Shown here: piece by piece, positions 23,447 to 31,621 of the stretch | Layout of the letters: each line of letters begins with the position of its first letter | Position numbering within the stretch: position 1 is the stretch's first letter | Notes under the pieces: generated by a model | Seen by the model: only the letters and a program-made list of their open reading frames with translations | Databases searched by the model: none | Told to the model about the DNA's origin: nothing | Translations under genes and position numbers: made by a program | DNA from: Acidobacteriota bacterium | GTDB lineage: Bacteria > Acidobacteriota > Terriglobia > Terriglobales > SCQP01 | Reading direction: 5' to 3' | Length of the DNA stretch: 64,000 bases | Assembly: GCA_027459505.1 (NCBI GenBank) | Contig: DAIDIE010000029.1 | Location: 124,001 to 188,000, forward strand

Positions 23447-24178
23447 TCAGTGGTCAACAGCCGTAACCTGCTTGTTCGCGGCCTGCATGGCTCGTTGCCG
23501 CAATACTTCCAGCGGCAGCTTGCCCGTATACAGCGACATGCCAAGCACGCTGTTGCAGCGCAACGCCTCCAGAGCGTCAATCTCTTCCAGGGAAGAGATA
23601 CCCCCGGCCACCGTCAACCCGGCGTTGGTGGCGGCGCGTACCTCGCGCACACGGTCCAGCGGAATCCCTTGCATGAGCCCCTCGGTATCGACGTTGGTGA
23701 AGAGAAACTCCGCCGTGTAGGGTTCCATCAAGCGGACGGCTTCCACGCTGGTTAGAGGCAACAGCTTCCGCCAGCCGCCCACCGCCACCTGCCCGTTACG
23801 GGCGTCCACGCCCAGCATGATATGCTCGCGCCGCAGCGCCTGCAAAGATTCCAGGAACGCAAAGTCCGGTTTACCGTCGCGAAACGCCGCGCTGGCAACG
23901 ATGACCTGTTCGGCTCCCCAATCCAGCACCTGCCGCGCGCGTTCCACCGAGCGGATGCCGCCGCCAACGCGCACGCGGTACCCCGCCCGGCAGCAGCGCT
24001 CCACCAGCGCGCCGTTGTTGCCCTCGCCCTTGGCGGCGTCCAGATCGATGATCTGCAGAACCGGAAAGCCGCGAAACAGCTCCAGCATTTCCTGGAGATC
24101 GCGCTCCAGCGCCTTCTGTTCGCCCTGAATGAGCTGCACCACCGTGCCGCCCTGGAAGTCGATTGCGGGAATGATCAT
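23447..24178 (-). CDS. hisA: ProFAR isomerase HisA
   Basis: MIIPAIDFQGGTVVQLIQG, RVGGGIRSVERARQVLDWGAEQVIVAS, TNVDTEGLMQG. Confidence 0.95.
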   Translation of the reverse strand: MIIPAIDFQGGTVVQLIQGEQKALERDLQEMLELFRGFPVLQIIDLDAAKGEGNNGALVERCCRAGYRVRVGGGIRSVERARQVLDWGAEQVIVASAAFRDGKPDFAFLESLQALRREHIMLGVDARNGQVAVGGWRKLLPLTSVEAVRLMEPYTAEFLFTNVDTEGLMQGIPLDRVREVRAATNAGLTVAGGISSLEEIDALEALRCNSVLGMSLYTGKLPLEVLRQRAMQAANKQVTAVDH

Positions 24179-24187
24179 GGAAGTCCG

Positions 24188-25591
24188 CTACCAGCGCATG
24201 CGCATGGGAATGCCCCGGCCGGCAAGTTCCTGCTTTAAATCGCGAATGCCGATCTCGCCAAAGTGAAAAATAGAAGCGGCCAGCGCCGCGTCGGCGCGCC
24301 CTTCCTGGAAAACATGAACAAAATCGCCGGGCTTACCCCCGCCGCCCGAGGCAATTACCGGTATCTGGACCGCCTGGCTGACCGCTGCGGTGAGCTCGCA
24401 ATCAAAGCCGCTCTTGGTCCCGTCACGATCCATGCTGGTCAACAGGATCTCGCCCGCTCCGCGCTGCTCGGCCTCCCGCGCCCACTCGACCGCGTCTTTT
24501 CCGGTCGGGGTGCGGCCGCCGTGAATGAACACTTCCCATCCGCCCCCCGCTCTCCGTCGAGCGTCGATGGCCGCCAATACCGCCTGCGAACCGAAGGCGC
24601 CCGCCAGTTCCGTAATCAGTGCCGGGTTTTGCACCGCGGCCGTGTTCACGCTGACCTTGTCAGCCCCGGCCTGCAGGATCTCGCCCGCATCCTCCAGTTT
24701 CCGCACACCGCCGCCAACGCTGAAGGGGATGAACAACTCGCGCGCCACGCGCCGCACTGTCTCAATTAAAATCGGCCGCGCCTCGTGTGACGCGGAGATA
24801 TCCAGCAGCACCAGTTCGTCCGCGCCGGATTGGTTGTAGGCCGCGGCCAGTTCCGCCGGATCGCCGCTGTCGCGCAGCGCCACAAAGTTCACGCCCTTGA
24901 CGACCCGCCCCTGGTGGACATCGAGGCAGGGAATAATACGGCGTGCCGGCGTGCGCTGGATCGCCGCTGGAGGCCGCACCGCCACCGGCGCCACGCGCGG
25001 CAGCGTGACAAAGTTGGTCAGCACCGCCAGACCGGCCTTGCCGGATTTTTCCGGGTGAAACTGCACCGCGTAGACGTTGTCGCGCTCGGCCACTGCCGCA
25101 AACGGCTCGGGATAGTGACCGGCATAAGTCGTTTCTTCTCCTACGGGCGCGTGGTAGGAGTGGGTGAAATAAAAGGCGGGGCTAGATCCCAACCCGGCCA
25201 GCATCCGCGATGGGCGCAGTCCCACCACCGGGCTCCAGCCCACGTGCGGCACCTTCACCCCGGGCTGAAAGCGGCGCACCTGTCCGCGCCACACCCCAAG
25301 GCCGGCAACGCCGGGCGCCTCCTCGCTGCCTTCGAAAAGCGCCTGCAAACCCACGCAAATGCCGAGAAAGGGTTTCCCCTGCGCAATGGCCTCCAGGACC
25401 GGCTGCCGCAGCCCGCGCCGGTCGAGCGCCTCCAGCATCGAGCCAAAGTGCCCAACCCCGGGCAGGATGACCTTGTCCGCTTTCCGCACCACCTCCGCAT
25501 CGGCGGTAAGCTCGTGCCGTGCCCCGAGATAACTCAAGGCTTTGCTGACCGAAGCGGCGTTGCCCGCCCCGTAATCGATCAGCGCGATCAT
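24188..25591 (-). CDS. hisHF: Fused imidazole glycerol phosphate synthase, HisH glutaminase + HisF cyclase
   Basis: One uninterrupted ORF: HisH part ([43 protein letters not shown]), then [20 protein letters not shown]...[11 protein letters not shown] (HisF). Confidence 0.93.
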
Positions 25592-25635
25592 GAAGTCGCG
25601 TTTTTCTGTGTGCTCACCCATGCCTGGCAGCTTTC

Positions 25636-26340
25636 TTAAAGCAGTCCTTTCGTGCTCGGCAAAACATCCTTCATGCGCTCATCCCGCGAACAGGCGTTCC
25701 GGAGCGCACGCGCGAAGGCTTTGAAAATGGCCTCGATCTTGTGGTGATTGCTGCGTCCGTAGACTGTCTTGACATGCACGTTGGCGCGCGCCCCCATGGC
25801 AAAGCCGTCAAAAAAGTCATGCACCAGTTCGGTCTGCAGGTCGCCTACCCTGACTGTGCGGACTTTGGTCTCCGTGACCGCGTGCGGACGCCCGCTGAGG
25901 TCGACCGCCGCCAAACCGAGCGTTTCGTCCATCGGCATCAGAAAGTACCCGGCGCGATTGATCCCCTTGCGGTCTCCCAGCGCCTGGTCAAAAGCGTTGC
26001 CCAACGCGATGCCGGTGTCTTCAACCGTGTGGTGCTGGTCGACATCCAAGTCCCCCACCACTTTAAGGGTCAGGTCAAAACCGCCATGCCGGGTGAATAA
26101 CTCCAGCATGTGATCGAAAAAGCGGATCCCGGTGGAGATCTGGTAGGCGCCGGCGCCATCCACGGTGAGTTCCAGATCGATCTGCGTTTCGCGTGTGTGG
26201 CGCCGCAGACTGGCCTGCCGGATGGCGCCTGGGCTGCGCGTCCCAGCTCTGCCAACGCTCACCGCGCCTTTGCCGTTCCCCGGTTTTGTCCGCCGGGCCG
26301 CCGCACCGGAAACAGCCGGCTTCTTACCGTTATTGGTCAT
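25636..26340 (-). CDS. hisB: Imidazoleglycerol-phosphate dehydratase
   Basis: [60 protein letters not shown]. Confidence 0.96.
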
Positions 26341-28175
26341 ATTTTTGCGGCGCTCCTTTCCAGCGAAATCTCTCCTGCCAGCACGGCCTGCGCTACTTGC
26401 GCCACGTTTTCGCGAACGGCGAGGCTGCCGTTCTTCTCAAATAGTTGCCGCATGACCTGGAAGCTCAAATGATCCGAGGGCAACACTCCCAGGAAGGCCA
26501 CTCCGGCGGAGCGGGCGCAACGCGCGTCATCGACGGTGTCGCCGATATAAGCCGCCATCCGGGCCGGCGCGAACTGTTGCCCCAGACAGAGCAGACCTTC
26601 CGGATCGGGTTTGCCGCGCTCGACGTCTTCCATGGCCAGCAGCTTCTCGAAATACCCGGTCACCGCGAAGCGGCGCAGCACAAATTCGGCGTCCTCGCGC
26701 GGCCGTCCCGTATAGATGGCCAGCCGGTAATACTGCTGAAGCTGTTCCAACAACGCGGTGGGCAACAGCCAGCGCTCGCACTGGATGAGTCCGTTCCCGT
26801 TGTCGCCGCGATACACCTGGTTGAAGGCCGCCACGATCTGCGCATAGGGAAACTCCTTGCCGCGGCGCCGCAAGATCTCTTGCGTGAGGTCCCAGTCGTT
26901 GTTGAATCCGCCCTGATTTTTGAGCGCCTGCACCTCTTCCGGGGCGACCTCTCCTCCGCCCAGCCGGAAAACGGTTTCGCGAATGGCGCGGCGATAGGAG
27001 TCGCGAACTTCCACCAGAACGCCATCCATATCAAACACCAGCCACGGCTTTTCCGCCGCTACCGGCGGCGCGGGGCTTGCCGCGAGCCGTTTCCAGGTGC
27101 CTTCCAGCAGTGTGATCGCTGTCTTTGTTTGCTCGACCGTGCCGCAGGTAATGCGTACCGCGCCCGGGTAATCGGCGCGGCGATCGCGCAACAAAATTCC
27201 ATTCGCGCGAAACTCCCGCAGCAACGTGCTGGCGTGGGCGCCCGCCTGGAAGAGCACGAAGTTGGCGTAGCTTTTCCAGTAGGGAATACCCAGCCGTTCC
27301 AGCGCCTCTTCGATCAAGCCGCGGCTGGCAATTGTCTCCCGGCGATAATTGCTGACCCAGCCGCGTTCCCGCACCGCCGCCCGTCCACAGATCACCGCGA
27401 GCATGTTGACGTTATACGGGGGATGCGCCTTGCGCAGCGTGGGCGTCATCGCAGGGTGTGCGAAGAGCGCTCCCAGCCGCAACCCCGCCAACCCATAGGC
27501 TTTGGAGAAGGTGCGCGCCACCAGCAGGTTGGGCAGGCGCAACACCTCATCCAGCAATCCGCGGTTCTCTTCGCTGACGAAATCGGCGTAGGCCTCATCC
27601 ACAAACACCAGCAGGTTAGGGAAGTCTTCCGCCAGCCGGACCAGCTCGTCTCCATCCGCCAGCGTTCCGGTTGGATTGTTGGGGCTGGCCACGAAGACCA
27701 TGCGTGTCTTTCCGGTCACCGCTGCGCGCAGCGCCGTCATATCCAGGCGGAACTCGGCCGCCCCTGGCGCAATCTCTGCCTCCAGGTAGCGCTGTGGGCG
27801 CAGCACCGCCTCAGCCTGCTGGCTGTAAAAGCGGTACATCGAGAAGGTAGGCTCGACGAACACGACTTCGTCGCCGCGATCCACAAACGTTTCCACCGCG
27901 AGCAGGATGGCGTCGTCAACGCCGTTCGTGAGCACCATGCTCTCCGGTGTGTGTCCAAAGCTGGCGGCGATTTCGCTTTCACCCTGGCTGTATTCGGGGT
28001 AGCGCGCCAAGTCTTCAGCCGTCGCGCTGTGCAGTGCCTCCAGTACCGCCGGCGAGCAGCCTTGCGTGTTTTCGTTGAAATCCAGGCGCAGCCCGGTGCG
28101 GCCCTCCAGCGGCGGGTGATAGGGCTGCATCTTTTCAATCGCCGGGCGCACGCGCGGCAAAGGCCGGTTGCTCAT
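26337..28175 (-). CDS. hisC: Histidinol-phosphate aminotransferase fused to HAD-superfamily hydrolase
   Basis: N-terminal HisC ([49 protein letters not shown]) in frame with HAD domain ([25 protein letters not shown] ... GKPDPEGL ... [17 protein letters not shown]). Confidence 0.93.
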
Positions 28176-29509
28176 CGTGCCGCCTCTCTGCCCGGCCGGC
28201 GCGAACGTGACCCGCGACGGGGCTTCCGCTCGTCTTCTACGCGCACCGCCACGGAATTGGCGTGCCCTTCCAGCCCCTCCGCCCGCGCCAAAGCCACAAT
28301 GTGCGGAGCCAGTTTGCGCAGCCCGGCCGCGCTTAACTTCTGCACCGTAATCACCTTGGTAAAATCGGCCACTGACAGGCCCCCGCGCAGCCGCGCCGTC
28401 GCCGCCGTGGGCAGGACATGGTTGGTGCCGCTCATGTAGTCGCCCACTGCCTGCGGAGCGTATTCGCCAACAAAGATCGACCCGGCGTTGCGAATTTTCG
28501 CCACCAGCTTCGCCGGCACCGTGATGTGCTCGGGAGCGATGCGGTTGGCGATCGCCACCGCCTCGTCCAGACCGGGGGTGAGTATGATCGCCCCGCGCTT
28601 CTCCAGCGCGAGGGTGGCGGTCTCGTTGGGTTGGCTCAGCAGTTGCCGCCGCACCGCCGAAAGCACCCGCTCTCCCAGACGGCGCGAAGGCGTCACCAGC
28701 CAAGCCGTTGCCTGCGGGTCGTGCTCCGCCTGCGCGATCAGGTCGGCAGCCAGGAAATCGGGATTGGCCCCCGCTTCCGCCAGCAGCAGCACCTCGGTCG
28801 GCCCCGCCAGAAAATCAATCGCGCAATCGGCCCACACCTCCCGCTTGGCGGCGGTGACAAAGATGTTTCCCGGCCCCACGATCTTGTCCACCCGCGGAAT
28901 CGACTCGGTGCCGTAGGCCAAAGCGGCAACCGCCTGTGCTCCGCCCACCCGGTAAATCGCGTCCACGCCCGCCAGATGCGCGGCGGCAAGTACCTCGTCC
29001 ACCGGTTGCGGACAGCACACCACCACCCGCTCCACACCCGCCACGCGAGCCGGAACGGCAGTCATGATCACCGTCGACGGCAGCGGATGCCGCCCTCCAG
29101 GCACATAACATCCCACGCTGTCCAGGGCGCGAACCTGTTGTCCAATCTCCACTCCGGCCGTCACCTGGCGCGTCCACGAAACCGGCTTCTGCCAGCGCGC
29201 CATGGTTTCAACATGGCGCCGCGCGGTGCGTAGCGCCACGCGCAAGCTCGATGGAATGCGGCGATAGGCCTCCTCCATTTCCGCCGGCGTCACCACTAAC
29301 GTTTGCTCCCCAGCCTTGCTCTTGCGGCCGGGCGGACAGAGCTCGCGCTTGTCCAGCTTGCGTGTCCAGCTCAGCAGGGCGCGGTCGCCGTTCTTGCGCA
29401 CGTCATCCACGATGCGGCGAGCCACCTTGGCCGCGGCGGCTAGATCGTCGCCACTGCGCTCCAACAGACGCCGCATGGCGCGCCCATTCGTGCTCTCAAT
29501 GATTTCCAT
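28172..29509 (-). CDS. hisD: Histidinol dehydrogenase
   Basis: SVGCYVPGGRHPLPSTVIMTAVPARVAGV, VDKIVGPGNIFVTAAKREV, FLAGPTEVLLLAEAGANPDFLAADLIAQAEHDP. Confidence 0.97.
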   Translation of the reverse strand: MEIIESTNGRAMRRLLERSGDDLAAAAKVARRIVDDVRKNGDRALLSWTRKLDKRELCPPGRKSKAGEQTLVVTPAEMEEAYRRIPSSLRVALRTARRHVETMARWQKPVSWTRQVTAGVEIGQQVRALDSVGCYVPGGRHPLPSTVIMTAVPARVAGVERVVVCCPQPVDEVLAAAHLAGVDAIYRVGGAQAVAALAYGTESIPRVDKIVGPGNIFVTAAKREVWADCAIDFLAGPTEVLLLAEAGANPDFLAADLIAQAEHDPQATAWLVTPSRRLGERVLSAVRRQLLSQPNETATLALEKRGAIILTPGLDEAVAIANRIAPEHITVPAKLVAKIRNAGSIFVGEYAPQAVGDYMSGTNHVLPTAATARLRGGLSVADFTKVITVQKLSAAGLRKLAPHIVALARAEGLEGHANSVAVRVEDERKPRRGSRSRRPGREAAR

Positions 29510-29551
29510 AAAAGCTAACCGTTCAGCGGCTCCGCGTCCGTTCGTCCGCAA

Positions 29552-30424
29552 CTACATCACGATCTTGTTCAAGGGATACTCCACAATCCCTTGCGCCTGC
29601 GCCGCCTTCAACCGCGGAATCAGCTCCCGGACCCGCTTCTCTTCGATGACGGTGTTCACTGCCACCCAGTCCGGATCGCTGAGATGCGAAATGGTCGGCT
29701 GCTTCAGCGCGGTCAGCACCTCCAGGACCTTCTCCAGGTGCTCGCGCCGCACATTGAGCATCAGCCCGACCTGTCCGTAGGCGGCAATCGCGCCCTCCAG
29801 CAACATTTTCAGAATGGCAATCTTCTCGCTTTTCCACGCGTCGCGCAGAGCCGCGTGGTTGGCAATCATTTGCGTGTTGGACTCCATCAACGTTTCCACA
29901 ATGCGCAGCTTGTTGGCGCGCAGGGAAGAGCCCGTTTCCGTCACTTCCACGATCGCGTCGGCCAGCACGGGCGGCTTTACTTCCGTAGCGCCCCAACTGA
30001 ACTCGACGGTCGCCTTGACGCCGTTGGCGGCCAGGTAGCGCTGCGTAAAGCCCACCAGTTCAGTGGCGATCACTTTGCCTTCCAGGTCCTTCACTGACGT
30101 CACCGGCGAGTCTTCCGGAACCGCCAGTACCCAGCGCACCTTGCCGAAACTCTGCTTGGAATACACCAGGTCGGTCACGGTGGCGACGTCGGCATTGTTC
30201 TCCATTACCCAGTCGCGCCCGGTCAGCCCCACGTCCAGCACACCGTCCTGGACGTAGCGCGCCATCTCCTGTGCGCGGATCAGCATGCATTCAATCTCGT
30301 CATCATCGATGCTGGGAAAATAGGAGCGCGAGGAGACGTAGATCTGATAGCCCGCGCGCTGGAATAGCTGCACGGTGGCGTCCTGCAAACTCCCCTTCGG
30401 GATTCCTAGACGTAGTTTGGCCAT
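29552..30424 (-). CDS. hisG: ATP phosphoribosyltransferase (long HisG form)
   Basis: [58 protein letters not shown]. Confidence 0.96.
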
Positions 30425-30433
30425 TGCGATGGT

Positions 30434-30820
30434 TCAGCCCTTTCCATAAACTTGCGCCGGATCGAAGACGCGCTCGCCCTGATCGGCGAATTTGCCGTCC
30501 TGCCATTCCCGGAAAAAGCAGCTGCGGAAACCTTCATGGCAGACCGCCTGCATGCCTTCCATCTCCGCTTCAATCAGCAGAGCGTCGGCGTCGCAATCGG
30601 TGCGGATGCGCAGCATGCGCAGGCGATTGCCACTGGTCTCGCCTTTAAGCCAGAGCTTGCGGCGCGAGCGGCTGTAAAAGGTGACAAAGCCGGTGGCCAG
30701 CGTGTGCTCAAACGCCTCCTGATTCATGAAGCCCACCATGAGCACGTCTCCGCCACGATCCTGAATGACGGCGGGAATCAGGCCACCCTCTTTTGCGAAG
30801 TCCAGTTTTACTTCTGACAC
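30434..30820 (-). CDS. hisI: Phosphoribosyl-AMP cyclohydrolase (HisI only, no HisE domain)
   Basis: VLMVGFMNQEAFEHTLATGFVTFYSRSRRKLWLKGETSGNRL, TDCDADALLI, CHEGFRSCFFR. Confidence 0.96.
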   Translation of the reverse strand: MSEVKLDFAKEGGLIPAVIQDRGGDVLMVGFMNQEAFEHTLATGFVTFYSRSRRKLWLKGETSGNRLRMLRIRTDCDADALLIEAEMEGMQAVCHEGFRSCFFREWQDGKFADQGERVFDPAQVYGKG

Positions 30821-30944
30821 TAGTGTTTACCTCGAAAGCGCGTAAAACCTGGCGGCGCGAATTGCGCTGCCCGGCGCCCGTGCCGGCGCTGATGATGCAG
30901 CTTTTGCCGCTTCTCAAGCGCGGGGCAAGAGGCTTTGCGCGGAC

Positions 30945-30976
30945 AAATAAAAAGGCCCGCCGCAAAACGGCGGGCC
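30945..30976 (-). terminator. Attenuator terminator upstream of hisI
   Basis: Minus strand GGCCCGCCG-TTTTG-CGGCGGGCC followed by TTTTTATTT. Confidence 0.92.
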
Positions 30977-31001
30977 CGGAAAATGTCGCTGACTCAAGGA
31001 A

Positions 31002-31082
31002 TCAGTTTCCGCAGCTCCGCCCATAGCCCAAATGGTGATGGGCATGATGGGGGCAATCGGAGCGCTGGAAAGTCAAATTCAT
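31002..31082 (-). CDS. hisL: His-rich leader peptide of the his operon (26 aa)
   Basis: ATG...TGA encodes MNLTFQRSDCPHHAHHHLGYGRSCGN; 5 His in 6 codons, just upstream of an intrinsic terminator and hisI. Confidence 0.85.
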   Translation of the reverse strand: MNLTFQRSDCPHHAHHHLGYGRSCGN

Positions 31083-31091
31083 TCCATTGCT

Positions 31092-31120
31092 AGTGTAGAA
31101 AACCAGCCGCCAGCTGTCAA
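31092..31120 (-). promoter_or_regulatory. Sigma-70 promoter of the his operon
   Basis: Minus strand TTGACA (31115-31120), 17-bp spacer, TACACT (31092-31097). Confidence 0.8.
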
Positions 31121-31411
31121 CCTAAGCTGGCAACGAAAAACGAAACCCGCGCATCGCCGCAGCCGCTGCGCCGCGCCGTGCCGCGCGACGTGGGGTGGCG
31201 CAGGTCATCGAAGCGGGGGGAACAAAAGCGGCCCCATTCCGGGGCAAGCGACAACAGCCGGGGCGGGCATGGCGTTCAGAGGACTGAAGTTCGCAGAGTC
31301 AGGGCGGCCACCGGAGTGGCCTGCCGAGTCTTCTTCTGGAGATGAGGGGAATTGGCGTTTGCGGTGGTGGGCATCGCCAGCATGCAGCCGCCCACGCGAC
31401 AACGCCAGCCC

Positions 31412-31621
31412 TCAGGCGGCTTGCGCCCAAATCAACGTTTCCGGAATGCGCCGCCGCCGCAACTCCGCGCTGACCTGTAAAATCACCTGCCACGTCTCTG
31501 CCTTGGCCGGATGGCCGGCTTGCAGGTCCTGGTACAAGTCGTAGGCCCGGGCGAGGTAGGACTTCAGGTCGGCATCGCTGAACGATTGCAGATTTCCATG
31601 CAAGGTCCCGTGCAGGCTCAT
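31412..31621 (-). CDS. Small hypothetical protein
   Basis: MSLHGTLHGNLQSFSDADLKSYLARAYDLYQDLQAGHPAKAETWQVILQVSAELRRRRIPETLIWAQAA, GGAG SD upstream. Confidence 0.5.
   Translation of the reverse strand: MSLHGTLHGNLQSFSDADLKSYLARAYDLYQDLQAGHPAKAETWQVILQVSAELRRRRIPETLIWAQAA

Follow-up and report, generated by a model that had tools for sequence, protein, structure and literature searches.

How is histidine synthesis controlled in the Acidobacteriota? The question is raised by a his operon in a 64-kb stretch of DNA (the window) from a draft genome of 4.06 Mb in 45 contigs, the SCQP01 genome, whose named relatives are Acidobacteriota and whose sister family includes Granulicella and Terracidiphilus. 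According to the NCBIfam assignment, the gene order is hisI-G-D-C-B-HF-A, all on the minus strand. A sequence-only reading had proposed a transcription attenuator with a His-rich leader peptide in front of this operon. As judged from comparative sequence analysis and modelled folds, we consider it very probable that the operon is controlled by a ribosome-mediated transcription attenuator of this kind, and that its leader ORF is leaderless, a feature which the earlier reading had missed.

The operon itself shows some peculiarities. The genes hisH and hisF form one ORF of 477 aa (24188-25621, minus strand; HisH 12-206, HisF 226-474), an arrangement known chiefly from the eukaryotic HIS7. The hisC ORF (26337-28703, minus strand) carries in frame after hisC a HAD-type hydrolase domain (TIGR01548, just under cut-off), possibly a histidinol-phosphate phosphatase. 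No hisE was seen in the operon (23447-30820, minus strand), and HisI, with 128 aa, comes without a HisE domain.

Read along the minus strand, the leader consists of a promoter, a 26-codon His-rich ORF, an 11-bp terminator with a U-run, and then hisI (Table 1). All of these elements were found where the sequence-only reading had placed them, including the 17-bp promoter spacer, the five His in six codons and hisI some 125 bp downstream, and NCBIfam backs the operon. The promoter is the single sigma-70-like match within 30700-31420 (mean in shuffles 0.1). The first T of its -10 box lies 15 nt 5' of the leader ATG, and from this we infer a transcription start at about 31085. No other short ORF on either strand of the window contains 5 His within 10 codons (about 0.17 per strand in the shuffled window), and the terminator hairpin is the longest among 5 terminator-like matches in the scan. 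Another terminator-like hairpin, GCCCCGGAATGGGGC, with a T-rich tail (31231-31245, minus strand) separates the upstream gene from the leader promoter; it probably ends the upstream unit. A T-box riboswitch was considered as well, and no T-box model is among the Rfam matches up to E 10 in 30600-31400.

Table 1. Elements of the his leader and operon in the window, with the basis of each assignment.
Feature	Position	Strand	Basis and remarks
-35 box TTGACA	31115..31120	-	sequence reading, promoter scan
-10 box TACACT	31092..31097	-	sequence reading, promoter scan; spacer to -35 of 17 bp
Leader-peptide ORF MNLTFQRSDCPHHAHHHLGYGRSCGN, 26 codons	31002..31082	-	without Shine-Dalgarno site; predicted leaderless
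Regulatory codons CAT CAT GCC CAT CAC CAT	31032..31049	-	5 His in 6 codons, HHAHHH
Region 1 (protector)	31047..31071	-	ribosome-free fold, 1:2 partner swap; TTTCC, GC, GCTCCG and CCCAT pair with region 2
Region 2, entirely within leader ORF	31006..31024	-	folds, swap tests; partner is region 1 or region 3
Small hairpin CTGATTC/GAGTCAG	30989..31005	-	fold; between regions 2 and 3, closing the antiterminator
Region 3	30969..30982	-	fold; overlaps terminator 5' arm; antiterminator with region 2, 5+3+6 bp
Intrinsic terminator hairpin (3:4), 11 bp, GC-rich	30953..30977	-	sequence reading, fold, terminator scan
U-tract TTTTATTT	30945..30952	-	sequence reading
hisI, first structural gene, GTG start at 30820	30434..30820	-	NCBIfam; GAGG upstream; 125 bp past U-tract
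hisG, hisD, hisC-HAD, hisB, hisH-hisF fusion, hisA	23447..30424	-	NCBIfam

The closest HisI proteins in the own family share only 62-68% identity, and conservation of the leader is thus informative. Sixty genomes of the order yielded 56 hisI loci, and every one of these has a His-rich leader ORF with a dense run of His codons, located 127-265 bp before the hisI match. Loss of this ORF from orthologous upstream regions that keep the terminator had been named as an observation that would speak against attenuation; the opposite was found. In other families of the phylum, 19 of 20 sampled hisI loci are positive, with a single exception in family f23. Only 3 of 20 hisG loci are positive, and hisG may not be the first gene there. 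A scan of the collection by organism name gave 26 positives among 30 loci labelled Acidobacteriota, counted from record titles, and one of the four misses has merely 69 nt of upstream sequence. Such an ORF is absent from all 45 hisI loci that bear labels of other phyla and have at least 300 nt of upstream sequence. Two further loci with foreign labels do carry a His leader upstream of hisI: the MAGs L084 and L077, labelled Armatimonadetes and Ferrithrix. Either these MAGs are mislabelled or the distribution extends beyond the Acidobacteriota.

Overall, 111 leaders were collected, with a median of 25 codons and 7 His; both CAT and CAC are in use. On the opposite strand, a His-rich ORF occurs in one of the 111. 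A terminator was called automatically in 109 of the 111, a few of the calls being weak, by a wider rule than the finder limited to simple perfect stems, which misses the majority of the sister family. Peptide sequence beyond the His run varies freely among families. A search for similar leaders before trpE, ilvB and leuA in 18 genomes revealed nothing general. Two loci of family f3 (L214 and L215) each have a short ORF with a high content of Ile, Val and Leu about 235 bp before the ilvB match, and both ORFs have a PNQAL motif near the start; an ilv attenuator restricted to this family is possible.

The position of the promoter relative to the leader ORF was evaluated in 99 non-redundant leaders, where the in-frame ATG closest to the His run on its 5' side was taken as start codon without regard to the promoter. 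In 91 of them the first base of a TANNNT box lies 12-17 nt ahead of the start codon (most commonly 15 nt), compared with 2 and 1 in windows farther upstream and 6.6 in shuffles, and TTGAC is mostly found at -40 to -37. A Shine-Dalgarno-like site precedes 3 of the 99 leaders versus 66 of 96 hisI genes. Leaderless mRNAs have been defined by a -10 box some 10-12 nt ahead of the start codon together with the lack of a Shine-Dalgarno site, and this signal marks 13.3% of the genes in three Acidobacteria genomes (PMC3160421). The leader ORFs show the same signature. Since the -10 box keeps this distance and ribosome sites are this rare, we predict that the leader ORF is leaderless. An out-of-frame ATG GAA TGA (31079-31087, minus strand) lies 5 nt ahead of the leader ATG and might be a competitor in case 31087 is the transcription start.

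The same attenuator might also operate on a leadered mRNA, with the real promoter farther upstream and the leader ORF started from an unrecognised ribosome site. The transcription start is deduced here from promoter position, and 8 of the 99 leaders are without a -10 box at the expected place, which leaves some room for this variant. We nevertheless regard it as unlikely in view of the fixed spacing of both promoter boxes across the phylum and the rarity of Shine-Dalgarno-like sites. In the leader of E. coli hisL, by comparison, the nearest TANNNT is at -44, whereas in the SCQP01 leader it is at about -15.

How a leaderless attenuator could respond to the ribosome was modelled by folding the leader with RNA segments masked for three ribosome positions. 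In the ribosome-free state of the window's own leader, two structures are formed: the 1:2 helix and the terminator. The sequence-only reading had assigned region 1 to GCCCAT at 31038-31043, pairing with ATGGGC. This pairing has a probability of 0.0 in the ribosome-free fold, where GCCCA instead pairs with TGGGC at 31026-31030, and ATGGGCGGAGC pairs with the upstream segment 31047-31063. With a ribosome at the first His codon (mask to 31035), a helix of 5+3+6 bp that encloses the small hairpin joins 31021-31006 to 30982-30969. The pairing of region 2 with the terminator 5' arm, as originally suggested, is thereby supported by the fold, while its extent is 14 bp rather than the 5 bp of GGCGG/CCGCC. 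In the stalled state, the probability of this 2:3 pairing stays at 1.0 while the RNA is extended as far as 30960 and is 0.85 at 30957, as against at most 0.14 without a ribosome, so that the antiterminator is formed in the model before the terminator 3' arm is transcribed. With the ribosome at the stop codon the terminator alone is left.

Once the full 3' arm is present, equilibrium favours the terminator despite the stalled ribosome; the same holds for the established E. coli his leader when it is calculated in this way. Therefore the order of transcription must decide, as in the textbook case. The stalled-state antiterminator is found in 87 of 91 leaders, and its lack in their stop-codon state follows partly from the definition of the mask; protection by the 1:2 pairing clearly separates the ribosome-free from the stalled state in only 48 of the 91. 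Taken together, the modelled folds suggest that the ribosome position would decide between the two structures.

Both competing helices were written out in an alignment of 36 leaders of the sister family (A2). In the terminator columns 92.8% of the cells are paired, compared with 29-64% when the columns are slid, and there are 26 cells with double changes against 9.9 after shuffling. For the antiterminator the corresponding values are 94.4% versus 32-46% and 11 versus 4.4. Its covariation score of 0.235 (0.185 shuffled) was reached by none of 500 shuffles; since the sequences are related, these counts and the swap counts below are not true probabilities. Compensatory changes thus support the maintenance of both the 2:3 and the 3:4 helix. 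Partner-swap tests covered 91 leaders drawn from all families: the duplex energy of region 2 is -19.5 kcal/mol with region 3 of the same leader and -16.7 kcal/mol with a swapped partner. None of 5000 permutations was as low, and this holds inside as well as outside the sister family. The 1:2 duplex behaves similarly (-22.3 own versus -18.8 kcal/mol swapped). As a control, region 1 was paired with the terminator 5' arm and gave no difference (-8.3 in both cases, p 0.48), and two other control pairs differ by 0.4-0.6 kcal/mol, a measure of the effect that arises from relatedness alone.

These data also bear on a different interpretation, in which the ORF encodes a functional small peptide, e.g., a metal binder or a trans-acting product, and the hairpin is a plain terminator of the upstream unit. 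The high His content would suit such a role, and trans-acting leader peptides such as peTrpL do exist (PMC7298713). Outside the His run, however, the sequence is free to differ between families while the RNA pairing is kept. Even the conserved VSAAVSG tail of the sister family can be attributed to pairing, as the antiterminator there consists of GUGUCGGCGG inside the leader ORF together with the terminator 5' arm. The upstream region, moreover, has a terminator-like hairpin of its own. We therefore hold a functional peptide to be highly improbable. Translational attenuation, where the downstream hairpin would mask the hisI ribosome site, deserves even less credence. In some relatives the stem indeed ends just 7-30 nt before the hisI match, but the hairpins are followed by U-runs, and in the SCQP01 genome the stem ends 136 nt before the match, far from the ribosome site. 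Short ORFs are common, yet a chance His-rich ORF beside a constitutive terminator has practically no standing against the conservation, the covariation and the controls.

The leader thus combines the features by which amino-acid attenuators are recognised: a His-rich leader ORF, an intrinsic terminator before the first gene, and a covarying, mutually exclusive antiterminator. Comparison across genomes, beyond the single sequence, supports the attenuation logic of the sequence-only reading. In the proposed mechanism, transcription would begin at the leader ATG or a few bases before, and a ribosome would bind the nascent RNA at its 5' end, with no need for a Shine-Dalgarno site. When charged tRNA-His is scarce, the ribosome would stall on the His codons and cover region 1. 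Region 2, which lies in the same ORF, could then pair with region 3 while the 3' arm is still to be transcribed, and the polymerase would read through into hisI. When histidine is plentiful, the ribosome would reach the stop codon and cover region 2, and the terminator would form. Without any ribosome, the 1:2 pairing would allow the terminator to form too, at least in the SCQP01 genome.

More tentatively, and with somewhat less than even confidence, we suggest that the ancestral way of controlling histidine synthesis in the Acidobacteriota is a leaderless His attenuator, which arose or was kept independently of the enterobacterial one. It might then sense not only the charging of tRNA-His but also how easily ribosomes start on bare 5' ends, since the leader ORF has no ribosome site.

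Among known systems, enterobacterial hisL (Rfam RF00514, His_leader) is alike in its short ORF with a His run, its alternative antiterminator and terminator, its U-run and its location directly before the his operon. It differs in that hisG is the first gene there, whereas in the SCQP01 genome hisI comes first and region 2 lies inside the leader ORF. The RF00514 model has no match in the window at the family cut-off of 49 bits; permissive Rfam thresholds gave sub-threshold matches only, the best His_leader scores being 28-29 bits in two relatives. The sequence-only reading saw his attenuation as mainly a gammaproteobacterial matter, and this has to be widened. Besides those of Proteobacteria, candidate his attenuators were predicted by comparison in Firmicutes, i.e., in the Bacillus cereus group, Peptostreptococcaceae and Erysipelotrichales and in hisZ/hisS leaders of bacilli, and also combine a His-rich leader peptide with a terminator and an antiterminator (PMC9413887, PMC2965389). 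As far as the available text of these two reports goes, they concern another phylum and few species and do not mention a leaderless start. In view of these predictions, occurrence outside the Gammaproteobacteria is not new per se. For the Acidobacteriota, no earlier description was found in the literature, which agrees with the novelty originally claimed; an older survey (Lopatovskaya 2010, PubMed 20198868) might mention one. The mechanism is known, while its occurrence throughout the phylum Acidobacteriota and a leaderless version for histidine seem to be undescribed. A 2010 survey states that hardly any attenuator predicted in Acidobacteria was associated with a function (PMC2965389). One attenuator can now be given a signal, an operon and a probable mechanism that apply to much of this large phylum of soil bacteria, with relatives in Granulicella and Terracidiphilus.

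The closest parallel to the predicted start is the trpL attenuator RNA of Sinorhizobium meliloti, a leaderless attenuator ORF whose ATG is the 5' end of the transcript (PMC7298713). It is a tryptophan system of an alphaproteobacterium, and its start site is reported, whereas that of the Acidobacteriota leader is deduced from the promoter. A leaderless start would raise the question of how attenuation can operate with initiation on a bare 5' end, given that it requires ribosome and RNA polymerase to advance together from the first codons onward.
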